A stretch of 64,000 bases of DNA from Ulota crispa (lineage: Eukaryota > Streptophyta > Bryopsida > Orthotrichales > Orthotrichaceae). The translations under genes and the position numbers were made by a program. The notes under the pieces were generated by a model. That model was not told the DNA's origin. It was given only the letters and a program-made list of their open reading frames with translations, and searched no databases. This document shows, one piece after another, positions 1,600 through 60,899 of this stretch (the stretch's first letter is position 1; each line of letters begins with the position of its first letter). Where the stretch lies: the NCBI GenBank assembly GCA_963920765.1, contig OY987251.1, positions 11,411,219 through 11,475,218 on the forward strand, written 5' to 3'.

Positions 1600-2532
1600 T
1601 TAACCCCTAAAGGACTGAGCCATTTTTTCAGTGAAAATCACCCAAAACTGTCACTTTCGGGACTAGGAAGAAGGTATATTTTTTTGAAAATTTGGGAAAT
1701 CCAACCATAGGATCTTGCCCTAAACTGGATTAGGTACTTGTGGAAAAAAATCGGGTCATTCCGGATGGACATGAGTGAGATATTTACATCTAAAGTGAAA
1801 AGAAATGATTTTTTTTCATGCTGCCGCAAAATTTCAGAAGCCTTTGACCATTTTTACATGAAAATAATTGCTCTACGCAACTTTGCGCTTTATTTTTCCC
1901 ATGTAGGAGATCAAGTTAGCAATGTGTGGGAGAATTTCAAATCAGTTGGAACTACACAACACATAGGAAAAATCAATAAGTAAAAAGAAGTAGAGAATGA
2001 GTCAAAATACTAAATTGTTAAGAATTTAATTATTAAAATGAAAAATGCAAATCCCAACGGTCATAATGTTGTGATAAACAATCTACATCCTTCGGTTTTA
2101 TTTTTTTTCCAAAACAATAAAAATTGAGTAAAATAAAGGACTTCAAAGTTTATTTTAGAGTAGAGATTTCATAATTGCCCGCAAACAAATATTGCTCATG
2201 GCTTTCATGTCATTGATTGAAATTGAATGATTCAAAGCTTCTCACCTATAAAAAATATAAAGAACCAATTTCAAATTTTAATTTAAAAAAAATTCATTTT
2301 AAAAGAAGTTTTTAGGCTGCCCGGGCGGGCGTTCTCCCTTGCTTTTCAGATTTTCATGCATAACTTCTTCAATAATTGTCGGAATGAGGAAAAAATTAGA
2401 TGCCCGCATAGATCTTTAAATTCCGCACCTTCAATAAAAGTTTTAGAAAATCACATAAAGTAGCTTATCCAAAGGTACATGCCCAAACTCCCACCTGTCC
2501 CCCGCAGGGACAACAATCCTTTACGGGGTTAA
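1600..2532 (+). mobile_element. piggyBac-type MITE, ~930 bp family, copy 1
   Basis: Starts TTAACCCCTAAAGGACTGAG and ends with ACGGGGTTAA, so the TTAA target duplication and CCC/GGG terminal triplets of piggyBac are visible at both ends. Two more full-length relatives lie at 4559-5495 (inverted) and 51961-52892. A fold-back derivative at 19659-20392 shares its terminal regions. No transposase is encoded; short ORFs inside are fortuitous. Confidence 0.85.
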
Positions 2533-2562
2533 CTTGGAATAATAGTTTAACTAAAAATTCTC

Positions 2563-2563
2563 A

Positions 2564-2623
<60 letters not shown>
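2563..2623. repeat. (TA)n microsatellite
   Basis: About 60 bp of nearly pure TA dinucleotides. It directly abuts the TA-flanked MITE at 2624-3030, which may have used a TA inside it as its target. Confidence 0.9.
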
Positions 2624-2626
<3 letters not shown>

Positions 2627-3030
2627 AATTGTTAAAGCCACACCCAAATTTGCTTACGCCACACCCGTATGAACATGTGATTTGAGAATTTAATGTTACT
2701 CTTTATATTCAAGTGATCCATCATTCATGCAATCATGTCATTACCACCTCTTTCAAAGAAAGGAATTTTTTTTTTTTGAACTTTTATTGCAGCAATTCTA
2801 TTTCATTTGTGTATTTTTGCTTTAAGTGATTTAAAATTCCTATACTTTTAATTTCAAATGCAAGCATCTCTAATTTTTAAAAATAAAATTTGAGAATGAT
2901 AGAGGTGAAACAAATCTTTTGATCCAAATCAAAAAAATCAACATGAAATTCTCACATTTCCATACTCAAAGCACACCTTCAGGGTCAGGGTGTGACATTA
3001 GCAATTTTGGGTGTGACTTTAACAATCCCC
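2624..3030. mobile_element. TA-flanked MITE (Tc1/mariner-like)
   Basis: Inverted termini GGGAATTGTTAAAGCCACAC and the reverse complement of TGTGACTTTAACAATCCCC are flanked on both sides by TA runs. The 407 bp interior has no coding potential. Assignment to Tc1/mariner rests only on the TA flanks, which are ambiguous inside a TA microsatellite. Confidence 0.6.
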
Positions 3031-3503
3031 TATATATAAATCTCTCCCGAACCTTACAATTTATTAGGGTGCCATTACTGCATACTTCCAAGTGGAAAAG
3101 GTGACCAGATCAAGCCTGAGCTACAAATCTATATTCCACCTTTATCCTTTGCTTTTGATAAAGTGTCCCAAAGGGGGTGAATATTGCCTAGTGGAATCCT
3201 GACATGGCCATTCTCCATATCCGAAAGCCAATTGGTAGTTTTGTACGAACTTGGCCAAAAAGTGACTTTATCTATCTGCACCAGGTGTCTGACAACAGCG
3301 AAAAATCCATACAAATTAAGGAAAAATTAAATTGAATGACCCATAACATTCAGTAGCAGTCAGCAGGCCTGCCTTCCCTCCAAGTGAAGAGTATGAAATA
3401 TTCTATACTCATCAGCAGCTAAGAGGACACTTGACTAAATTTGTCAAAGAATTTATGAAAGAAAGGCTCAATTTAGTGCACATACATTGATGTGGGGTCA
3501 GCC

Positions 3504-3537
<34 letters not shown>

Positions 3538-4266
3538 TTTTTATGTGTGTGTTAGTATGAAGTTAGTGGATGATACATGAAGAGAGGGAAAGGCAGCCTC
3601 TCTTCAGGCTACTGAATGTTATGCCATTGAACCATAACAAGTGGAGTAATTAAGTATCCCATAAAAGCAATAAACAAGCAAGCCTTTGATACTATTGTAA
3701 ACACCCATGGAATGAAATTCAAGGTTCGAGGAGAACTGACAGTTAGTGTAGTGGCAATTGATTGAAATTGCTAAAAACCCAGTTGAAACCTGAAACCATT
3801 GGCTAAAAAGTTGGTCCATTTTCCAAAAATATATAAATATAGTACTTTTACAATAGAAATTTAGAAATTTTACAGAAAATAACCGGTCCATGTTAGTGAA
3901 AATTCAGTTGAAACTAGACACTGCCGGATTTCAACCGGTGAAGCTAAAATTTCTCCCCGAACCCTGGAATGAATTAACAAAATATATTTTTCAAATATCT
4001 GGGCAGGTTCAATCAATCCAGTTACTTTTTTAGCCTCAAATCAAAACTCAATTTAAGCTTTATAAAAAAATATCCTGTAAAATGAGATCCTGCTGCAAAT
4101 ACCCTCAGTCTACACAGACCGGCATTTGCTTCATTTCCGATAACAGAAGCACGATACATTGATCACACTAAACTTGCAGAACAAAATTATGTTGCTAGAG
4201 ATAACGGATGGAATTCCCAGGTTGGATGGAAATAGTGTAATATATACAGATGACGTGACACTTTCT
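3031..4266. other. AT-rich intergenic with a 28-nt poly(A) run
   Basis: No gene is seen. A run of 28 A at 3509-3536 follows a segment (around 3474-3503) that resembles 53248-53285, so the run could be the tail of an old retroposed sequence. No target duplication was found. Confidence 0.5.
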
Positions 4267-4558: not shown

Positions 4559-5495
4559 TTAACCCCTTCATGACCATTGTCCCTTTGGGGGACAGGTTAG
4601 GATTTTGGGAATGAACCTATGGCTAAACTACTTTGTGTGATTTTTTGAAACTTTTATTGAAGGTGGGGAATTTAAATACCCATGTGGGCATCTCATTTTT
4701 TCTTCATTCCAACATTTAATTTAATGAAGAAGTTATGCATGAATTTATGAAAATTTGGGGAGGGCTGCCCATCCGGGCAGCCCAAAAACTTCTTTGAAAA
4801 CTATATTTTTTTAAAGTAAAATTTTAAAATTGGTTTTTTAGATTTTTTAATGTCTAAGAAGCTTTGAATCACTTAATTTCAATCAATGAGATAAAAGTTG
4901 TGAGGAGTTTTTGTTTGAGGGAAATTATGGATTCTCTACTCTAAAATAAACTTTGAAGTCTTTGTTTTACTCAATTTTCAATATTTTGGATAACAAATTA
5001 AACCAAAGGAAGTAGATTGTTTATCACAACATTATAACAATTGGGATTTGTATTTTTCATTTCAATAATTAAATTCTTAACAATTTAGTATTTTGACTTA
5101 TTCTCTACTTCTTTTTACTTACTATTTTTTCCCATGTGTTGTATAGTTCCAATTGATTTGAAAATTCTCCCACACATACCTAATTTGATCTCCTACATGG
5201 AAAAATTAAAGAGCAACTTTGGGTAGAGCAATATTTTTAGAGTGATCAAAGGCTTCTAAAATTTTTGGGCAACATGGAAAAAATCTTTGTTTTCACTTTA
5301 GATGTAAACATCTCACTCCTCTGCATCTGGAATGAGCTGATTTTTTTCCCACAAGTACCTCTTCTAGTCTAGGGCAAGATCCTACGGTTGGGTTTTCCAA
5401 AAACAAAACATGAAATTCCTTCTTATTACACCTCCTAGAAGTGGCATTTTTTAGTGATTTTCACAGAAAAAAGGGCTTGGTCTTTTAGGGGTTAA
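4559..5495 (-). mobile_element. piggyBac-type MITE, ~930 bp family, copy 2 (inverted)
   Basis: TTAACCCCTTCATGACC at the left and TCTTTTAGGGGTTAA at the right. Internal sequence is homologous along its length to 1600-2532 in reverse orientation. It shares its right-hand TTAA (5492-5495) with the next element. Confidence 0.85.
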
Positions 5496-6445: not shown

Positions 6446-8777
6446 TTAACCCCTAAAGGACCAAACTCATTTTTTCTCAAAAAACACTCAAAACTATCAT
6501 TTCTAGTGATTTGATCCCAAAAACAATCTCTTTCAAAAAAAATCAAATCTAACCTTAGGATCTTGTAGTAGACTCATTCAAGAACATACCATGAAAATTT
6601 TGTGAAGTTGACTGCACGGATCGAGAGATATGATCATCTAAAAGTAGTACATAAATTTTTTTTACCCCTACCCAAAATTTTCAGGTGTCTTTGACCTTAT
6701 GTGGTAAATAATTTTTGCACTATAGGTGCTGAAGAGATTTGTCTAACATGCTCTAAGTCATGTTAGGCATATCTCTCCAAGTTTTTGTGATCAACCAAGA
6801 CATGGTGATCAACCAAGACATGGAACACACCCTCCATGGCCCTGCATTGCAAACATGGGCTTGAAATTCACACTACACTGAGGTTTTCTGCCAACCAAGT
6901 TTTCATAAAATATAATAAAGAATATGAAAATCCAAGCAGTGGATTGGAAGAGTTTAGCTTCATTGACAATCTCAAGAAAGACAATTGGAAAAAAAAACTA
7001 AATCTCTAGTAACTATTGCATTTCAAAGGTTAATGTATTTATCAAATACAATAATGTATTTATTCAGTACACTATTGCTTTGGATAGATTCCATTGAGGG
7101 GCATCCCTTCATTGGTTCCTCTTGGGAGAAGTTAACAAAAAATGGCATGCCCAAGTTGCCCCTCCAACTAAAATTCACATATTTACCCTTATAACTTTAG
7201 AACTATAACTCAAAATTCAGTAAAAATTATTCTCCCACGTAACTCTTGCAAAACTCTACCTTTGAAGAAAAAATTATATAATTTGGTCATAAATTATAGT
7301 AGCATAACCCTGCCCAAAATCCCATTTATCCCTCATAGGAACAAGTGTTGTTGTTGGGGTTAAGAAAACTATTGATTTTGTAAGGCAAAATCCATTTCTT
7401 GGATTTTGAAACTCCCCAATCCCATAACTCCATTGCTCCACTGGGATGGATATACACAACTTTGTACCTTTACCATGATGCTATCTACTAGTAGAAACTA
7501 GAAACGTGGTCAACATAGACTAAGTCTAACATATCATTTCCATGACAGGTTAGAGATCAATTGTGTGTTTGATCTCTAAAACCCCATTGTTCATTAGTTC
7601 CTATAGGGAAAAAAACGGATTTGGGCAAATTTGTTCCATTGGGATTTTTGATCAATTATTTTAAAGTTTATTATTAAAATAGAGTTTTTATAAGGGCTAT
7701 ACGGGGATACAATTTTTCCTAAAACTGAATTTACAATTCAAAATTTAAGAGTATTTTATGGACATTTTTTGAATTAGAGGCAACTTGGACATATTGTTTT
7801 TCATAAATCTCTCAAAGGCAACAATTGAAGGCATGAGCTGCATGACCCTTCATTGGAAGATATCCACAATAACATTGTACTAGATAAATGCATTATTAGG
7901 TTTGATAAATACTTTAATTAATCTTTGAATTAGAACAGTTCCTGAAAAATAATTTAAACTTTATCTTAGCTTCTTTGTATAGTTGTCAACAAAGATAAAG
8001 TCTTCCAATCCGGTGCTAAGATTTATATTAAAAAAAACATCAGTTAGAAACTTGCTTTGTAAAAAGCCATGGTGTAATTTGAATTTCAAGCACATGTTTG
8101 CCATGCAAGCCCATGGAGAGAATGTTCCAGGTCTTTTCTTTGTTAGTCATGAAAATTTGTGAAAATATGACTAACATGATGTAGTCATGTAGAGCATGTT
8201 AGACAAATCTCTCCCGCGTCCATAGTGCAAAAAATGTCCACAATATGTGGTCAAAAGGATCTAAATTTTCTAGGGAGAGGTAAAAAGAACGTTTTATACT
8301 AAAAACAATATTTATTAATTTGGGAAAAGTTTTTCCCTAAACACATTTTGAGATATTGAATTTTGCATTTGTGAGAATACTTTGGTGATTTAAACTAAAG
8401 TGAGTTTTTACATAATTCCTTCAAGAGATTTCATCATTGATGTAAGGTTTTAAAGAATTTATCATAAGATTCACTCTAAATTACCAAAAATCTCTTAAAA
8501 AGCATAAAAATCCAAAGTCTCAAAATTACGTTTTTCCCCAAATTAACTTACATCGCCTTACTAACTTCAAATGTTCATATCTCACTTAGTGTGTACACTC
8601 AGTCAAACCTCATGAAAATTTCACCAAGGCTCGGCTCTTGCATCTGCCTAATGCAAGATTCTGTATTCATGTTTATAGAAAAAAGAAAAAAGAAATGTTC
8701 TAGAGATCAAGTGACAAAAAATGGCAGTTTTCAATGCTTTTTCAGGAAAAAAATGCCCTTGGACGTTTAGGGGTTAA
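6446..8777. mobile_element. 2.33 kb palindromic (fold-back) piggyBac-type element
   Basis: Begins TTAACCCCTAAAGGACCAAA and ends ACGTTTAGGGGTTAA. The left half is the diverged reverse complement of the right half: 6680-6890 pairs with 8050-8290, 6900-6990 with 7960-8050, 7000-7090 with 7840-7935, 7130-7230 with 7700-7810 and 7310-7380 with 7560-7630. The centre is near 7.5 kb. About 70 bp at the centre (7461-7527) resembles, inverted, the DNA just outside the right end (8779-8842). No coding sequence is seen. Confidence 0.8.
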
Positions 8778-37464: not shown

Positions 37465-38368
37465 CGTGTCTCTCTCTCTCTCCTTCTCTGCCTACTAAAC
37501 CCTAATTATACTCCCATTCTCCACCTGCATTTCAGCTCATGTGCCGAGTGCTGGACGGTATTGTCCCCGAGTCTTCCAGGCCTTTGCTCCCTACTCATGC
37601 TGAGCATCAAAATTGCGCAACCACAAGAACACACATCTCTTCACGATGTATTCGAGTGTAAGAGACGATCCAGGCACAACTTAGTCACTCCTAAACAATC
37701 CAAGTTGCTCATAGAAGCCAAATCCAGTCGAATGACACCAATTCTCCGCAAAGCATCCTGCAATTGTGAACACAGCCGTTTGAATAAGACTCCAACCGAC
37801 AACACCAGAACCGACCAAACAAATGCATCATAAAAATCGAAATGCAAAAAAGAACATATAGAGCAACAAACACACCATAAAACGATATCGTTAGCTCAAC
37901 GGCAGAGAAGTGCTGTATCGCACACTCAAATTGACCTAAAAGTACTAACCGACACCGCAATGAAGCTCTCGGTTATAAGCTTATCACATTTCTCACTCAA
38001 GAATTTGACCATTGAGCTCCGGAGAAGTCCTGAGACTAGAAAACGAAACTCTAAGATCCGTGAAAACCTAGTGAATAAGCTCAAAAGTGGCTCAAAATGG
38101 CTCAAAAGATATCACAAGAAGCTCTGAGAGTGGAATTTTGTGTTGGAAAACCTCGTCCCGGCACTGAATGGGATGCTGAAAGGCTCGATAAACGGGGAGT
38201 TGAGAGAGGAGGTCGAAGAAAAGGGCGTGTACTCGTCCTTCGCCGCAGATTGCATTGCGTTTGAAGCGGTTCTGTGAGGAATTCGGGAAAGGTGACGAGG
38301 GATTGAATTGTTTGGGAATGGCGGGAAGGCACCAGTTCTCGTTGTGCGTGAAGGCAGAATTTGATTGT
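37465..38368 (-). promoter_or_regulatory. EXO1 upstream region
   Basis: Moderate-GC unique sequence with a CT-repeat (37470-37484) just upstream of the ATG, as in many plant 5' leaders. No TATA box stands out. The ORFs here have no recognisable motif. No divergent gene is supported. Confidence 0.4.
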
Positions 38369-38527
38369 GGATGAATGGTGGTGGATGAATGGTGGTGGAT
38401 GAATGGTGGTGGATGGATGGTGGTGGATGAATGGTGGTGGATGAATGGTGGTGGATGAATGGTGGTGGATGAATGGTGGTGGATGAATGGTGGTGGATGA
38501 ATGGTGTTGGATGAATGGTGTTGGATG
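38369..38527. repeat. 14-bp minisatellite (GGATGAATGGTGGT)n
   Basis: About eleven head-to-tail units, mostly identical, with one GGATGG variant and GGTGTT variants at the right end. It lies about 0.9 kb upstream of EXO1 and about 60 bp from the left end of the piggyBac candidate. Confidence 0.95.
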
Positions 38528-41094
38528 ACTGTGTTGTTGGTTCGTAGATGAATAGTGGTGGTTGTATGAAGGGTCCGTTAAGGTGAGAGTTTAACCCCTA
38601 AAGGACCATAGGGCTCCGTATCCCTGCGACCGTAGAGTATGGCTACGGTCAGTTAGAATGATGGAGGTAGAATTCAGGTGGGTCAATTGTCAATCAGGTC
38701 GGTTTGATGTGAGCCACTTCTCCTTGCGCTCCGGCTGCAATTTTTAGAGAAGGATCCACCGAACAATTTTGAAACTTGTGAATGCACTTGGCCGCATACG
38801 GCAAGGGAAGGTGGCTCGATAGAGAAGAGGGTTCTAGGTTGAAAGGGAGCCACGGAGGCTGCCATGTGGGCTTCAATGCCGTTGAAATTTGGCGCAATTG
38901 TTGTAGTTCTAGGAGGGATGGTGGATTTGGCAACCTTTGCAGAGATTGTGGGTATTGCTCAGCGCGTTCAAGGTACTAGGGTACAGCTAGTACGGGAATA
39001 GAGGATTGCGCTTTATTATTTTTTGATCTCCTACTGTGTGAAACAAAAATCTCAGGCTTCCAAAAGAGGATCCCGAATGTCAAGCACAGAATGGTTTCTT
39101 AAACAACGACAATAAGAATTGACTAGGTTTTTAGCAACGGTTTTACAAGTTCCTTCATGAACATGAGAGAAAATGACATAAATGGATTCATATCAATCCC
39201 ATGTCAAGCACCCAATCAAAATCAACTGAAAAACTCTATGAATGGTACGACTGAGTTGGGGAAGGCAAGACGCGGAAAATCTCTTACATGCCTTCATTTT
39301 CATGAAATCCTAATTTAGCAGCACATGAATAGAAAGCATGCGAGGGAAGAACTCTCAAGCCTCTTGGGTCTCTCTTTCTTTCTCTGCGCAGCCGTCTAAG
39401 TCAATTCAGTTCCTTAGTTGACTGGTAGGCAATTATTCCCTTTGAAGTGATATTTTGTTTTATTTTACGGTCCATGAAGATTTCTTCAAAATGCTTGTAA
39501 GATCTTGCTCATTCATTTGAAACTACACTCTACTTTTGAGTGAGAATACAGTCTTTTGGATCCTTATGCACAGGCAAATGATTTTTTGTTGTGGCGTGTT
39601 GGTTCCTTGACTGCGATGGTCAATTTGCAGGGTTTTTTTCTTGTGTGAAGGTTTTGTATGCACTTGTAATGCAATAGGTGGTTTACTTGAAGCGTTATCT
39701 TTGTTTGACAAAGCATAGTGGTGGATATGTGAAGATAGTCATGGTCTCTTCTGCCATAATGGAGTCATTCATGCAAAAAGCCAGAGAACAGCAATGAATG
39801 CTATGATCCACCATTCACTGCTACAGCAATGTCAAAGCTCAATCGACATGACACAAATGGTGCTACGCAACTCACCACTACAACAATCCTTCAGCCAGGC
39901 GCATGCGCTAAAAAAGGTAGCAGCATTCATAAGCGATGTGTCCCCATGGCCGTCACCTGACAGTGGCAAGGGCCAATCAATAAAAAAATAAATGGTTGTG
40001 GGTGACTCAGTGATGGTTATGGGTGATGAAATGATAGTTGTGGATGACTAGCATGAGGTTTTGAGTACCCATCTCACTATCTAAGAACCAACAAGCCTCA
40101 TTTTTAGCATCTCTTACACAATGTCCCTACAATTTCAATGATTTTGGACTTTGAAAAATCTTTGTGAACAAATGCTTGCAATTGGAACCTTGAAATTGAT
40201 GCCAATATTTTTGATTTCCACTTCCTAACTTCCAGTATTTTTTTCAAAATTAGTCAATTGTTTTACGTACTCCGAAATCCTCATTTCCATGCTTATGGAT
40301 AAGGTTGACTTACATTTAGACAAGACTGACAATCAACACTTTAAAGCAATGACATGGTTGGACCTTGATACACTTGGCTAGGACAAACAAGTAACCTAAT
40401 AATGGAACCAACTTCCACTAGGGCCGCCTCACAAGTGCAATTTCAAAAAAAAAAAAAAAAAATCCTTCCACATAAAAATAAAGTCCTGCAACATTACAAA
40501 TGGTCCAGCACTGCTGCGGCAGTATTGTTCCGGATCCAACAAGAATAAATAATCCAAAATACCACTTGTATGCTCCATGCTGGGGCATGAACACAGAAAA
40601 CATGAAAATCCTCTATGTGGTCGGACAATGCCTCTAGCACAAGTACCATTATGGGCCTACGGCACTTTCAGTAGGCTTTCATAAAGACCTGTCATTCCAA
40701 ATTTGTAGGCACTAGAAAAAAATACATATACTGAAAACACCCAAATTACTGAAAAAACTCAAATTACTTCCACAATGCCTTTGCACATGTCAAATGTAAC
40801 TACCACTGCTAGCTGCGCACAAGTCCTCCAACAAAGCAAGTGTCGTCAAAGCTGCCACCACAACTTACTTTTGCTCACCGCCATGCGGGCATAACAAATT
40901 GTGGCTGCGTGTGGATCCGAACATAACAAGCACCATCACACATGAATGCGCAGCTGCAACCATCGCAGAATTGTAACGTGCATTGCGCACATACAATACA
41001 TTTTTGACAATGATTAGGGTGCCTTTCAATGCGATGGAAACCCGGGCAAGCTAAGATTCGATGAAGTCCACAAACAGCGCCTACATCTAAATGT

Positions 41095-44000
41095 GGCTAA
41101 ACCAACAACATGGCAAGGTCATAGTACCACTGCAGCCTTGCATCCACCTTGAACCCAACCCGCTCTGCATCCTCCCAGTAGAGCACATATGTGTTCAAGC
41201 AAGAAGAGTCTAACACAAACAAAATATCTTGTGCTACCATTTGTGGGATTGCAACTGTGCCATGTAGTTCCCGCGTTGCTGATTGACCACATCAACCCCC
41301 CGCATGTTCTTCTAACACTCAAGAAGGATTGGACTTGTAGGGTTCACCCTATCGCGCTTGATCCAACGTCCTGCTCCTGCACCCTCCTGAATAGGGTTTA
41401 GGTAGCTGTATCGAGAAGCCAAACCGGCTTGGAGTCAATCCAACAGATTGCTGAAATCTTCCTAGAGCGGTACATTTTAGTTATCAAAGTGCCCCTTGGA
41501 GGAAGGTTGCTCTTGGGAAATCCAGCTAGCAACAATGGAAATCCTCTAGATCCCTTCTTTGCATTGCCAGTGGCATAGAAACCCCTCTCCAAGAAACGCA
41601 TGAAGAGCTTCACTCTAGTGAAGAAATTATCTATCACAATGGTATGCCCCTGATGCTCCAACCCATGAACAGATTGCAGCACAACGTCTTCCCCTACCAA
41701 GGATCCCACCTCAACATCCCCACTTGCTCCTAGATACACCATGACACTGGAAATATACATGTGCACCAAACACAAATCAGAAGCCAAACAGTTAACATCT
41801 AAGACGATGTAGACAAAAAAGAACATGTTCTTTTACAAAATATAAATTGACTAATGATTTTGCTTTTCTAGACAAAATACATTTTTGAATCAAAAGCAAG
41901 AAAACATTCACACCCAACTATTATAGATGCCACCCTCACAAAAAAAATATCTATACTACTAAATAACTCCACACTAATGGATCCATGCATTGCAAGTGGT
42001 GTTGGTTTCATGTTTGAAAGTAATCATTCTAAAGGGATGCAAGATCCTAGATCAGACAACACATTCTTATGGATCCACTTAGAGTACTAGTAGAATTTTA
42101 GGCAAAGGTATGTAATACTTCCACAATACCAATATTTAGACAACTTACTCTCACATTCTCTTGTCCACTTTAGATATATCACACACGATTGGAAAAAACC
42201 AAACAACCAGAAGACATACACAATTTACATTAGGTAGACAAAATTCAAAGGTTTCATTAAAAGCTCACCTAGACTGGCTTGAAGCCAGAGCCCATATCTT
42301 GATGCCAAATTTTACTGGTTTTGACTTCATATACTAGCAAATCCCACAGTACTTTCCTTTGTATGGTACCATGATCTTGTCCATTGTGCAAACTTCTTTG
42401 TTGTTGTAGAGGGATTGACTAGTGCAAGTGAATGATTCAACCAAGCGCCTAACCTTCCTTGTCTTGTCATACCTTGAGTCTTGCCAATCATTCTCTAGGT
42501 TGTCATTGTTCACCAAGTGCATGCAACAAACAATTGCCTCCAACTTGTACCGGCTCATCACTGAGGTAATAATGGGACAATTGTAGAAAGGGTGCACATC
42601 CCAATACAGTTGCCGATTTGGCAACACATTCACTCCCATAAAGATGAGGACTCCAAACCAGCATAGAAGCTCCTGTCGCGTCAAGTCCACCCAATTGCTA
42701 CGCCCATTAGTCAAATGAGGTTTATAGGTATCTAAGTTTTGCATACCTGCATTACAAGCCACAACAAGGTCATCAACATGCTGTGACTGAGCAATTTCAC
42801 ATGACTAGGTCAAAGCTCTATGCTAGAGTTAGACATGTTAGTATATGCCCACACAATAATCATCAAATCAACCTAAAAGAGACACTATCCCTCCTAACAA
42901 TTAGCAATACTTCCAATTACATAAGCTACTATACAGCCTAGAGAATATGCCACCACCCTATTTGGTTAGAAAAAACCAATGAACTGGTTCAACTTGACAA
43001 ACACAATAACAATATGCCAATTCCTTAGAGAATGTAGCAAGCAAAGACCAAAAACCGTGTTCATTGTTAAGGTAGGAGCACCCATAAGCTTTAGTGTCCC
43101 CATAACCATCACCTTTGAAATCTTGGAAAATCTGTGAAAGTGAATAGATGTAATGAAAAGAATGTACAATATGTGAACATGAAATCTTAAAAGTGGTTAT
43201 GGGTGTAATGGCAGTTTGCTCTTTAAAAATTCACAACTTATTCTCATAGTGTCCAAAGCAAACTCATTTTTTTCTGTTCCTAATAGGATCCTATAATTTG
43301 CTAGTTTTTTATTAATAGTCATCATGTTCAAAACCCTTAGTTTGATGTTTTTGGGTGCTCCTACCTTATGTCCACTTCTAGAATTTGAAATCCTTAATAA
43401 TGCAAATGTGGACAATTTAGATCAAATGAAGGTGAGCGTGCAGCATTTCATTGTGCCCTGAGAGGGTTGCTGCTTCTAGAGATTGCCTAAACCTGGGATC
43501 AGCTTGAAAATAGGCTGTGAGGAAGCCTGAGTAAGTCTAACAGGCAAAACTGCACATGTACTTTGAAATCCCAAGTAATACCTCTATTTGGTCATACGTT
43601 GATATCAAGGGCAAACTTGAACATTGAAGATAGATTTTTGTTTTTATTGAACCAAAACTAAGAGTACTCACCTATTTGTTTCTTGTACTATTGGGTTGAG
43701 AACCTCCTCATGCCAAAATTTGATAAAATAATTAATGGGCTTTGCAGGCACCATTCAAAGCCTTCCCTTCAACCCAGTTCTTTGACCAGTAAATGCGCTT
43801 GTATTCAACAGTGAGTGCAGCGGCTGTTGCCATTGATTGTCACTCCGAATTTTGTCAAAACTCCAAGCTGAGGTGTCCTCCTGTTCGTCGTAAAGCCCTA
43901 GTTGAGACATTGGCATCTCGTCAAAGGAACTTGCAGGCAACGATGGCGCATTGTTGCTATTCATGCTATCAAAGTCTGCATAATCCTCTCGCTAGTCAAC

Positions 44001-45401
44001 ATCATTGGGGTCAAACAAAGATTGGACGCTCTTGGGACGAGGTGGTGAAGATCCCATCGGAAGGGGTTGAGTGGAGCACTCCCCAAGATAGAGTGACCGT
44101 ACGGCAATGCTAATGTTGGCCATCTCCGTTTTGCTGACATCTTCCTCTTCTAAATTAGTACCTCCTCCACAAGCGATGTTCAAGTCTACCTCTATCACAA
44201 TGTTCATGTTGCCTAGTGCTTCACTGCCACGATTCATGCGGGAGTAAGCAAACTTGTCCCTGCACACCGGAAGTACACATTAGGTAGACGTTCTTGTAGT
44301 TCTGAACTCCCAGTGCCAGCACTAGTCAATACATATAATGTTTGGTGGTCACCAATTCATGGACAAATACTTAGCGGACTGCCCATGACCTCGTTAACCA
44401 GAAGGAATTGCGTGGGACATCAAACAAATTATAGTATTTGTAGAAATTTTGTGGGAAAGGGATTTCATGAGTTTATATGGTTCTCAATTCTGTAGATTTG
44501 TGATGGACATACTGGGTTTCAAGAGTGAAGGTATAACTACGTAGTTAGAGTCCCAAGAAAAGGCTTGTTTGCATTCCTGTAGGGCACAACATGTGGTACA
44601 TGAAACGACTTGAACTACTTTAGAATGGACAACCATGAAGAATGAATGCTGAGGCACGCCAAGCATATATAGCACTAAAATTTCACATGCATGACATCTA
44701 CACCAGGGAAGACTTTATGAATATCAGAGCCATGGTCAAGGCTGCATTATGAATTTTGGAAATGCAAGACTCTTTATGCACGCACGATTCATTACCTAAT
44801 GTAGCCGATGAAGCAAGTGCTCATACTATCATACTCCTATTACTATATAATAATAGCCCTGGAGCACAGCCTCTTGGGGACTTTGGTTTTTATTTTCAAT
44901 ACTAGGCATGTAAAAGAAATACAACATAAAGTTGAAGAGCGACTTACCTAGCCTCCTCACATGCTGATTGAGACAATTGCAGCAAGATCGGGCTCGTCTG
45001 AGCAATTGTAATACCTGGCGGAATCCACCCTGGAGGCACTATGTTATGTTGTGTGGTCAAACCTCTACCCCTGCTGCCACTCCTAGAATGCCCTTTCCGC
45101 CCTCCTCAACCTCAACTAGAACTTTGTTGCATTTGTATTCCTTGTGAAGATCTTCCAATACAAGCCTCCCCCTCTCTGTAAGAATAACATGGTTGTTGAT
45201 ACGTGCTGGTATTTGACCACCCCCTCGTCCTCTACCGCCACACGTAGCCCTTCTTCCTCCACGCCCTTGACGAACACACCTCCCATCCATGATGTCTTCA
45301 TTGCATCCTTCAGTCAATCCTACATGAATTGTGTCTAGATCGTGCAATTGGACTGGAAGAGCGCATTCAAAACAAGCCAAGAGATGCTTTGGATGACTCA
45401 A
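41095..45401 (-). pseudogene. piggyBac transposase (DDE_Tnp_1_7 type), spliced and decayed
   Basis: Catalyses TTAA-specific cut-and-paste transposition in intact relatives. On the minus strand, donors and acceptors join in phase: about 45401-44949, 44261-43672, 42746-42269, and 41746 to about 41095. The 43672/42746 junction restores the hallmark ETNRYA (PIVQETNR then YAMQNLDTYK). Next come LCWFGVLIFMG, the first catalytic Asp region (CTMDKIMVPYKGKY), KFGIKIWALASS, the second (HTIVIDNFFTRVKLF), and the third (AICWIDSKPVWLLDTA). In another frame follows the C-terminal NMRGVDVVNQQRGNYMAQLQ block. Several in-frame stops and at least one frameshift show it is not functional as it stands. The N-terminal part (45401-45057) is Arg/Gly-rich (RGRGGGQIPARINN). 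The family call is firm; the 5' exons are tentative. Confidence 0.85.
43070..43366. mobile_element. TA-flanked MITE (AGGTAGGAGCACCCATAAGC), inside the piggyBac transposase intron
   Basis: AGGTAGGAGCACCCATAAGC at the left and TTTTTGGGTGCTCCTACCT at the right, with TA on both sides. It is a close copy of 47674-47984. Confidence 0.85.
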
Positions 45402-45446
45402 ATCTCCAATTATTGTTCTTGATGACAGAGGAATAGTGTAGTCTTG

Positions 45447-46065
45447 TCAACTTCCCGACCATGGTGGACTCCCCATGACTGCAACCAAATTCTCTACACC
45501 TTGAGATTCCTCAACATGGCCCTCTTGAGACTCTCCTTCTTGTTGGAGTGGAAGGATTGTGACGTCATTTGTGGCCAGCGAGTGCAGCGTGACTTGGGCT
45601 TGTAAATCTCCTACCTGTAATGTCCTCTGCCTAAGAGGTGCATGTAAACTGGGCGATTGGAGCGCTTGGCAAATGCAACCCTCCTGCCGCGCCTCCTCCC
45701 TCATCCTGCCCATGGCGAATGATACTTGAATTCGTGAAAAACATATACTGCCATAAGCAAGTGACCTCTGCGTTGAAACCTAGACAATCGCCCTCCAAGA
45801 AGCACTCCCTCTAATGCGGAATATGTTGGACGTACCACAAAAATCTGTCTTCAGCCTCGAAAGCTGGCAATGGAGACTCCAAATCTGACGCATGGAACGT
45901 CGAAACCTGCGCTGGCAGCGTCGACAAATCCATGGCGAGAGGGAAAAATTGTATCCTTGCATGCGTGGACTCAAATAATTCAACCACTCTCTCCCAAAAT
46001 AGACAGCCATTACTAAGAATCATAATCACAATAACCGTAAACCGCAGCCAAAACCCTAAACTCAA
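45447..46065 (-). other. Possible 5' exons of the piggyBac element
   Basis: Two short minus-strand open frames (45780-46065 with MDLSTLPAQVSTFHASDLES, and 45447-45713) lie between the transposase and the right end of the element. They could be its first exons or an accessory reading frame. No similarity is recognised and no splice model is asserted. Confidence 0.3.
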
Positions 46066-46565
46066 CTAATGCTCCTTGATTTGTGCAAGTGATTTGTGCG
46101 AGGTATTGCCAAAACCGCTGCAACTCAACCTAACCACCGCTCTCTCAATTTTTGCTCAGCGGCCAAGGATGTGGCATGTCTTCCACCATAATACAAACAA
46201 ATTAATGCCAGCACAGAATTGACGAACATATCAACCGCACCTCACACCCGCTCAACCTTCAGGTTCTAAATCTGAACTCAAATACGTAGACCATAGTCCT
46301 CCTCATGTACAAACCACTCTGTAAGCTTGAAAATCAATCACTTGAACTTGCCGATCATTGCATATTGTCGAGGAAATAGCTAATACAAAGTCATCAAAAG
46401 CCAAGGCAAATCCCTAAATGCAAAGGTCTCCAAATACAAAGAAAAGCTCTTGTTTTGGTCACAGAGGGACGCTTAGTCGTTTAGAGGTAAAAATTTTTTG
46501 GCATCTCCAATGGACTTGGAATTTGGGCCCTGCATACTAAATCTAATTGTTTGTTAGATGATAGT

Positions 46566-46996: not shown

Positions 46997-47673
46997 CCTC
47001 TAAATGCCCAAGGGTGTTTTTCTTGTTTTTGGAAGACAGTTTTGAAGTGTATGAATTGTACTTGTAAGATCATTGTTAAATTTCAAAACAAAATTTTAAT
47101 TGTAGAATCTTGAACCTCAAGGCTTCTAAATGGCACTATTCAAAAAAATCCAAAATGATCACGCCAATTTTAAGATATTTGTGATTGAATGTGGATGTGT
47201 ATAGAACTTTTTGCTTTTTTTGGAGCCGTTCCAAATTTCTAATGCAAATTGAAAACTTTTGGATACAAAATTTGGAAACAACCATAGAGGATGCTTTAGT
47301 GTTTATTGTTGTTATTTGAAAACTGATAGCTGCCCTTCCTAATTCAAGATCACGATTTTACAAACAAGCCTACAACGCAAAGTTTGTCAAAGCATTATTG
47401 CCTAATACAAAGAAATTTTTTAGCTTTAATTATTGACCAAAAATCATTATGCATGAAAGAAAATTTGAAGGTGAATGAATTCTATTTTTTGTAGCAAAGA
47501 CATTTCAAGTGAAATATTCCAAAAGCACTTCTAGATTTTGTTGAATGAAGTTTTTAAATAAAATGGGCCTTACTACCACAGAGAGCATCCAAGGGAAATC
47601 TTCACTATTTTCTCAACTTGATGCTTGTCTTTTCAATGTGATAGCTGGATGATTGCAAGAATGGCCTGTACTA

Positions 47674-47984
47674 AAGTATGTACACCCATAAGCGTCAGAG
47701 TCCCCATAACCATCACCTCTGAAATCTTAAAAAATCTGAGGAAGTGAATAGATGTATTGACAAGGATGTACAACATGTGAACATGAAATCTTGAAAGTGG
47801 TTATGGGTGCAATGGCAGTTTGCTCTTTAATTCACAACTTATTCTCACAATATCCAAATAATACATTTGAAAGTGCAAACTCATTATTTTTATGTTCCTA
47901 ATATGATCCTATAATTTGCTAGCTGCCTATTGAAACTCATCATGTTCAAAACCCTTAGTTTGACGCTTATGGATGTACATACTT
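47674..47984. mobile_element. TA-flanked MITE, copy of 43070-43366
   Basis: About 310 bp, aligned end to end with 43070-43366 (CACCCATAAGC, TCCCCATAACCATCACCT, TTCAAAACCCTTAGTTTGA shared). The terminal AGGTAGG has drifted to AAGTATG. Confidence 0.8.
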
Positions 47985-48009
47985 TACATTCTATCCCCTT
48001 CACCTTTTG

Positions 48010-59120: not shown

Positions 59121-59690
59121 GCGTATGTTCACACTTGGTCTTAACCTTAAATGACCATAGGGCATAGTATATATATGCTGCCGTATAATTGACATTTGCT
59201 ACAAATAAGAAGTTTTAATTTGGGATCTCAAGTAGCTCACAAGAACCACTTTGATCTATTCTCCAACTATTTTGTTTATCTCAAATGTAGTAAAGGTGTG
59301 AATCTATTCCAAAGACAAGAAAAACACTTCATATTGTACTAGTTGCAATTGCATGCTTAGACGTTCATGGGTTAAAAGGGGTAGTAGCAAAGGAAAACTA
59401 AATGCAGTTGGACACACTTTTAGATTGCATACATATTGCTAATACCCCTCCTAACACCAAGTGTGAACCAATGTCCAAGGAGAGCCAAAAAACAATAGAA
59501 AGTCAACCAAATGAAATGTGCAAAAAATTAATTGAAATCCAAAACAACAGACAAAAAATTGACTAAATTTTTGAAAAATTTCTAATTATAATGTAAGTAT
59601 ACAAGAGATCCACTAAAAAAGCTAGATGAAAATATAAAATATAGACTTTTGAAGCTCAAAATCTCCCCGTACACTAGTGTGAACATACCC
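59121..59690. mobile_element. PIF/Harbinger-like element (GYGTATGTTCACAC ends) with TAA duplication
   Basis: GCGTATGTTCACACTTGG at the left and ACTAGTGTGAACATACCC at the right. TAA lies at 59118-59120 and 59691-59693. It is nested in 59081-59774 and itself contains a piggyBac MITE. Confidence 0.85.
59141..59375 (+). mobile_element. piggyBac-type MITE sharing ends with the transposase-bearing element
   Basis: TTAACCTTAAATGACCATAG at the left and TAGACGTTCATGGGTTAA at the right, 235 bp. Both termini and 50-80 bp inside them resemble the two ends of 38591-46490, so it reads as a deletion derivative of that element. Confidence 0.8.
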
Positions 59691-60116: not shown

Positions 60117-60868
60117 GTTGGAGCGAGCAGAGCAATGGCAGCATGAGACCTAGGAAGCGCTTGCAACACCGCAGGTTGTATAATCTGGTGCACTTGTGAG
60201 AAGAGCGCCGGTGTGAGGAAGCTTGAGCGAGCGAGCAGAGCAATGGCAGCATGAGACCTAGGAAGCGCTTGCAACACCGCAGGTTGTATAATCTGGTGCA
60301 CTTGTGAGAAGAGCGCAGGTGTGAGGAAGCTTGGGCGAACGAGCAGAGCAATGGCGTGAGACCTAGCGGGCGCAACACCGGAGGTAATAATCTGGTGCGC
60401 ACGCAGGAGTTCTTGTGAGACGAGCGTAGGTTTGAGGAAGCTTGAGCGAGCAGAGCAATGGCGTGAGACCTAGCGAGCGCATCATCGGAGGAAATGTAAT
60501 CTGGTGCGTAGGCAGGAGTTCTTGTGAGACGAGCGCGGGTGTGAGGAAGCTTGAACGAGCAGAAGCAATGGTAGCATGAGATTTAGCTAGCGCAACACCG
60601 GAGGTTATAATCTGGTGCACTTGTGAGAAGAGCACGGGTGTGAGGAAGCTTGAGCGAGCGAATGGCGTGAGACCTAGCGAGCGTATCACCGAAGGTTATA
60701 ATCTGGTGCCTATGCAGGAGCTCTTATGAGAAGAGCGCGGGTGTGAGGAAGCTTGAGCGAGTCGAGCAATGGCGTGAGACTTGGCGAGCGCAACATGGAA
60801 GCTTATAATCTGGTGCACAAAGAGGAGCTACGGTGAGAGGAGCAGGAGGTGTGAGGAAGCTTGTGCAG
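60117..60868. repeat. ~95-115-bp minisatellite immediately upstream of the TIFY gene
   Basis: Seven head-to-tail units carry GAGCAATGGCRKSATGAGAC, CACCGxAGGTTxTATAATCT and GAGGAAGCTTGAGCGAG. The first two units (60125-60333) are nearly identical. The last ends about 30 bp before the start codon. Several 80-110 aa minus-strand ORFs are products of the periodic sequence and are not called as genes. Confidence 0.9.
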
Positions 60869-60899
60869 GCATGATTGTGCACGCGGGGGATCTTCTGTG

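Follow-up and report, generated by a model that had tools for sequence, protein, structure and literature searches.

The window analysed here is a 64,000-nucleotide stretch of the moss Ulota crispa (contig OY987251.1, our C10:11411219-11475218). At 38591-46491 it carries, on the minus strand, a decayed element of about 7.9 kb that we identify with high confidence as a dead cut-and-paste transposon of the piggyBac superfamily in the moss nuclear genome. Short terminal inverted repeats (TIRs) lie at both ends of a transposase gene relic that is apparently split by two introns, and a miniature inverted-repeat transposable element (MITE) with related ends lies further along the window. Relatives (locus names beginning with L) come from the 274.8-Mb assembly, which comprises 157 contigs, ten of them large. 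The psaB gene on the plastid contig has three moss photosystem I structures, 7ksq, 6l35 and 8htu, as its top PDB matches (1681 bits), followed by 9lut (1643) and several near 1600, which makes a moss the most likely host on sequence grounds too; 6L35 comes from Physcomitrella patens (PMC7884438). The features are, in window coordinates:

38591-38594, no strand: left target site TTAA, read from the sequence.
38595-38650, plus: L terminus, TIR and subterminal block, 3' of the transposase gene; aligns to L061 and L063.
39912-40312, no strand: nested high-copy MITE of about 400 bp, Stowaway-like, TIR TAAGGTAG..CTACCTTA; outer limits by eye.
40878-41096, minus: Cys-rich C-terminal region of the transposase, 46-55% identical to L061, L062 and L063.
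40986-41758, minus: exon 3 relic with the second (41629-41631) and third (41291-41293) catalytic Asp codons and two frameshifts; PF13843 and alignment.
41759-42268, minus: putative intron 2, which in the window copy retains its donor GT but seems, by eye, to have lost its acceptor AG.
42269-42746, minus: exon 2 relic with the first catalytic Asp codon (42379-42381); PF13843 and piggyBat alignment.
42747-43671, minus: putative intron 1, 925 bp, from its splice borders.
43068-43368, no strand: nested MITE inside intron 1, with a second copy at 47672-47986; read from the sequence.
43672-44183, minus: exon 1 relic ending in ETNR; 39% identical to L061 over 184 amino acids (E 6e-34).
45060-45779, minus: probable N-terminal coding region including an Arg-Gly-rich stretch; partial match to L062.
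46410-46487, minus: R terminus, TIR and subterminal block, 5' of the transposase gene; aligns to L062 and L065.
46488-46491, no strand: right target site TAAA, a decayed TTAA, read from the sequence.
59141-59375, plus: non-autonomous piggyBac-type MITE of 235 bp with TTAA at both ends; exact borders.

A preliminary description, made from the letters of the window, had proposed a minus-strand piggyBac transposase relic with three Asp-containing catalytic blocks and the NMRGVD block, and this was borne out. The PF13843 (DDE_Tnp_1_7) profile matched the minus strand at 42334-42804 (E 3.7e-23) and 41398-41832 (E 4.5e-11), with a further minus-strand match below the cut-off at 43674-43754 (E 0.015) and none in seven other of the ten window pieces given to the profile search. 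All three catalytic Asp codons are kept, in the blocks TMDK, VIDN and NMRGVD. Exon 2 of the window copy aligns to the solved structure 9c0f (E 1.8e-8), and exon 3 of L061 aligns to 9c0f (E 1.3e-8) and 6x67 (E 2e-4); we take these structures to be bat piggyBat and Trichoplusia ni piggyBac, respectively. The Cys-rich C-terminal stretch is conserved among copies and has no Pfam match of its own. In the N-terminal region, 45450-45779 (minus strand) matched L062 (39%, E 1.8e-11), while the Arg-Gly-rich piece 45060-45446 gave no match in that comparison.

The element begins with TTAA CCCCTAAAGGACCATAGGG at 38591 and ends with TTTAGAGG, then TAAA, and its TIRs, CCCCTAAAGGACC and CCTCTAAACGACT, begin with CC(C/T). 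A TIR-like pattern (up to 4 mismatches) occurred 12 times in the window vs. 0 to 2 times in 20 shuffles. The copy is dead: exon 1 has two stops, exon 2 one and exon 3 three, the frame shifts near 41400 and again near 41222, and two bases net have been lost near 42722 (the last read by eye against L061). A DNA search with the whole element recovered the element itself, at least 39 copies of the nested MITE of 385 bp and a single hit on the MITE that lies within intron 1; thus DNA similarity did not find the relatives of the element, and it was a protein search with exon 2 that did.

The relatives bear directly on the architecture of the gene. The preliminary description had restored the motif ETNRYA across one phase-perfect intron. 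In our reading exon 1 ends at 43672 (..ACAAATAG|GTGAGT), exon 2 starts at 42746 (..TGCAG|GTATGCA) and the join restores T-N-R-Y-A in phase 2, at a site that is conserved among copies. That part of the claim therefore stands; the spliced frame, however, hits a stop after YAKLRYL, and the frame with the conserved blocks is regained through the net 2-base loss, which lies some 25 bases from the start of exon 2. A second phase-2 intron, which had been missed, lies at about 41759-42268, likewise within the transposase domain. We compared 20 copies: the window copy, L061, L062 and L063 (fetched at length), and 16 short stretches round exon 2, the 19 relatives having been chosen for high identity or an open frame from 150 matches listed for the exon-2 protein search. 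The intron-1 acceptor AG stands at the same codon in 16 of the 19 relatives and in the window copy (17/20 in all; 14/16 among the short stretches), the exceptions L062, L076 and L078 reading GCAAGTAY. For intron 2, 19/20 copies share the position of the donor GT (exception L069; at the next best offset GT occurs in 8/20), and the intron-1 donor GT is present in all four copies read at length. The length of intron 1 varies from about 0.1 to 1 kb. We dropped the use of tblastn end points as exon borders because the query itself ends at the same point; the borders were then read from fetched DNA. Judged from these conserved borders, the transposase gene is split by two phase-2 introns at fixed positions, which would be removed by splicing.

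The same genome holds at least 120 PF13843 matches, and the exon-2 protein search listed a further 61 rows, partial ones included, with identities of 50-67% and spread over all ten large contigs (counted by eye). In a tree built on 139 columns of exon 2, with the distant piggyBat as outgroup, all 20 intron-type copies formed one group (support 100/98), nested among 31 intronless copies (L001-L030 and L066) and adjoined by L011, L025, L007, L020 and L022; the alignment is short, the outgroup branch long, and the rows were picked by continuity or likeness to the window. Among the 30 loci L001-L030, 7 (L001, L004, L007, L010, L011, L014 and L025) could be read straight across site 1 and have no intron there; the others, in which site 1 was not seen by motif and frames, were called intronless from a near-continuous PF13843 match. 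A hidden intron 1 in L011 was ruled out, as KQTNLYAKQAS runs unbroken there and is followed by a frameshift. One intron-bearing clade nested among intronless relatives suggests that the introns were gained once, inside a moss radiation, in a lineage that kept moving. Over 190 pairs the median nonsynonymous-to-synonymous ratio (pN/pS) was 0.28, with synonymous sites mostly saturated, and the two closest pairs gave 0.24 and 0.40; these low values argue that selection maintained the function of the copies as they multiplied.

Of separate note is L066 (C8:19568501-19574500), an open, intronless piggyBac-type open reading frame (ORF) of 472 amino acids at 2450-3865 with an Arg-Gly-rich ORF upstream, which we view as a possible domesticated gene. 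Three pairs of piggyBac matches in opposite orientation and with equal or near-equal scores, 15 to 109 kb apart (C7:18203169/18223004, C2:36765124/36779670 and C10:676128/785346), are perhaps inverted duplications. A scan of viral contigs found no relative.

That the two ends and the transposase form one element had been offered in the preliminary description as an inference, and other loci now uphold it. We aligned the window ends to three intron-type loci, one of them extended upstream (L065 is the stretch upstream of L061). Beyond the TIR, the L end (38591, plus) aligned to L061 at 6446-6504 (score 54 vs. a maximum of 30 in 15 shuffles) and to L063 at 7754-7815 (46 vs. 29), and the R end (46487, minus) aligned to L062 at 92-155 (68 vs. 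34) and to L065 at 3009-3093 (42 vs. a maximum of 31 in 20 shuffles). Expected ends were thus found in 4 of 6 cases (L end at 2/3 loci, R end at 2/3), each of them placed and oriented as expected. L061 and L065 together make up a single element, C1:1176510-1184004, of 7495 bp including TTAA at both ends, with TIRs CCCTTGCACGTCC and CCCTTGCATGACC and the same transposase; it is not intact, its Cys-rich end lying in another frame. Because independent loci show such joins, the join in the window is supported, and the outcome that the preliminary description had named as its refutation, no other locus with these termini and this transposase, did not arise. Among 62 control loci totalling 235 kb, taking the best alignment on each strand, an L score of 46 or more occurred once (L035) and an R score of 42 or more twice (both in L060). 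Around 30 loci of the intronless lineage, a search out to 1.5 kb at 5 mismatches found neither L- nor R-type ends; L001 has a TIR-like TTAACCCTTCATTGCCAA downstream, and the 11 kb round L011 held only 5- and 6-mismatch matches to the ends.

The MITE at 59141-59375 is exactly 235 bp from TTAA to TTAA, as had been described, and has at least 43 matches including itself, the others 78-90% identical and most of them beginning and ending near the TTAA borders. In an alignment of 20 such copies and the window copy, TTAA, counted by eye, is present on the left in 21/21 and on the right in 18/21 (absent from L086, L090 and L098), the flanks differ, and mean pairwise identity is 0.80. The R end of the single window MITE scored 41 and 45 against the R ends of the window element and L062 (shuffle maxima 32 and 31). 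With the 21-copy consensus, an L end of about 50 bp scored 47 against the window element and 44 against L061 (maxima of 300 shuffles 24 and 22), and an R end of about 70 bp scored 63, 69 and 43 against the window element, L062 and L065 (maxima of 300 shuffles 27, 26 and 29). By the consensus, the MITE therefore has its R end in common with 3/3 transposase-bearing elements and its L end with 2/3. A short-word search of the MITE interior against the element loci gave no match longer than 13 bases. The MITE had been called offspring of the window element with shared ends; the shared ends hold, but since the two have no more in common than terminal blocks of about 50 and 70 bp, it is presumably a relative moved by the same kind of transposase rather than offspring of the window copy. 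Across the whole genome, the L end of 23 bases, allowing at most 3 mismatches, occurred 5816 times vs. 0 in a reversed control, the R-end pattern (up to 2 mismatches) 4048 times vs. 5, and a general TIR with TTAA (up to 2 mismatches) 30,312 times vs. 18, or one per 9 kb.

The window holds further inward-facing ends of the TTAACCCCTAAAGGACCAA type, paired at 1600(+)/5477(-), 6446(+)/8759(-), 19659(+)/20373(-) and 46993(+)/52874(-), and perhaps marking non-autonomous elements of 0.7 to 6 kb of the same superfamily; unpaired ends of this type stand at 4559(+) and 56610(-).

Several observations weigh against reading the locus as one transposon of a mobile, intron-bearing family. The window copy is broken and, apart from its two nested MITEs, single at the DNA level, and no examined copy was shown to be fully intact, L061 shifting frame before the Cys-rich region. 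Alignment of the window ends did not find the L end of L062 or the R end of L063, and upstream in L063, at 1470, there is instead a match resembling the L end (score 44, shuffle maximum 33), which we take to be a further member of the family. The L end of the single window MITE did no better than shuffles (35 vs. 35 against the window L end, 35 vs. 40 against L061), and the consensus L end scored 18 against L063, a value reached by 19 of 300 shuffles. With TIR-like sites at one per 9 kb, a lone TIR near a gene means little. This density, together with the number of L- and R-type ends, makes it plausible that one end came to lie beside the relic by chance, and it could be argued that both ends are parts of unrelated MITEs. 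The ends, however, match beyond the TIR and in the right orientation at other intron-type loci, one of which has both, and the three control matches in 235 kb predict about 0.4 in the 30 kb tested vs. 4 seen (the thresholds were set after the scores were known). We regard an unrelated origin of the ends as largely refuted and very unlikely.

Alternatively, the intron-bearing copies could be host genes, that is, domesticated transposases or their pseudogenes, and not mobile at all. Their low pN/pS would fit, as would the intron-bearing piggyBac genes that excerpts of PMC3902484 name, PGBD5 and the ciliate piggyMacs, which are domesticated. The spread of the 61 rows over all ten large contigs, the TTAA-flanked ends and the frequent stops speak instead for a transposon family, and we give domestication a very low probability. 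It might also be supposed that what look like introns arose by random insertion or deletion as the copies decayed and are never spliced; the nested MITE in intron 1 of the window copy would fit this. This is the least probable of these alternatives, given that codon and phase agree, with acceptor AG in 17/20 and donor GT in 19/20, across mostly far-diverged copies in which intron 1 varies from about 0.1 to 1 kb in length.

We therefore return to the piggyBac transposon and propose how its live relatives would work. Transcription of the gene would run in the R-to-L direction, and splicing would take both phase-2 introns out of the region that encodes the transposase domain. The resulting DDD transposase would bind the TIRs and subterminal blocks, and the element would be cut out at TTAA and reinserted at another TTAA. 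Non-autonomous relatives whose ends match, the 235-bp MITE among them, would be mobilised in trans by transposases of this family. On balance, though with no more than moderate confidence, we favour a history in which a mobile moss piggyBac lineage gained, on a single occasion, two spliceosomal introns in its transposase domain and went on moving under selection, its activity thus depending on host splicing. This lineage, perhaps with its intronless cousins, would have fed a very large TTAA MITE load, of the order of 15,000 elements in 275 Mb, an estimate that assumes two TIR ends each.

Other repeats lie in and around the element. The nested MITEs at 39912-40312 and 43068-43368 (with 47672-47986) have the TIR TAAGGTAG..CTACCTTA and an apparent TA target site and are Stowaway-like; the 385-bp core of the former has at least 39 other copies at 88-91% identity. 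A 14-bp minisatellite with units like GGTGGATGAATGGT (38334-38557) directly adjoins the left end of the element, and a tandem repeat with units of about 100-111 bp (60121-60871) lies in a GC-richer stretch. Elsewhere in the nuclear contigs, outside the plastid contig, 46 partial psaA/psaB matches are most likely plastid DNA insertions.

It had been stated that piggyBac is rarely described in land plants. Our literature searches for dedicated work agree, and found no description of piggyBac in a moss, although earlier plant records may exist; a paper on the moss Niphotrichum was rejected as such a record, its word matches being to 'piggybacking'. The statement nevertheless needs qualifying. In reviews, plants are named among the hosts of piggyBac (PMC3902484, PMC8086355, PMC10794571). 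Beyond these, 1230 PiggyBac entries are tabulated for a fern (PMC6890710), PiggyBac appears among the MITE superfamilies of angiosperms (PMC10004981) and the DNA transposon superfamilies of plants (PMC10794571), and piggyBac families are reported from a haptophyte alga (PMC5963040). Excerpts likewise describe most mobile piggyBac elements as lacking introns in the transposase domain, with PGBD5 and the ciliate piggyMacs as exceptions (PMC3902484), and animal elements as having single ORFs, with CCCTT as the best conserved TIR motif (PMC10813416). The kind of element is already known; what is unusual is that a mobile clade has introns at fixed positions and that a moss genome holds a TTAA family of this size. 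The literature found deals mainly with animals, and most mobile members are described as having an uninterrupted transposase domain (PMC3902484, with single-ORF animal elements in PMC10813416). With a two-intron clade nested among the intronless copies of a single genome, one can ask how transposons gain introns and whether splicing limits where a transposon moves, and the abundant MITEs with matching ends offer a plant system in which piggyBac transposase and dependants are paired by sequence.

Like T. ni piggyBac (6x67) and bat piggyBat (9c0f), the moss element combines PF13843 and its three Asp blocks with TTAA, TIRs starting with CC(C/T) and what may be an equivalent Cys-rich C-terminal stretch; unlike them, it has a moss host, two introns in the transposase domain, a length of about 7.5 kb and a long N-terminal region with an Arg-Gly-rich stretch, and its transposase is only weakly similar to the two solved proteins (E about 1e-8 for 9c0f and 2e-4 for 6x67). 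PGBD5 and ciliate PiggyMac also have a transposase domain split by introns, according to excerpts of PMC3902484, but these are domesticated genes, whereas the moss copies form a multi-copy family with TTAA-flanked ends. Finally, the 235-bp element resembles the piggyBac-type MITEs of plants and animals in being short, non-coding, TTAA-flanked and TIR-bearing, and differs from them in that the moss genome itself holds transposase-coding elements whose ends match over about 50 and 70 bp.

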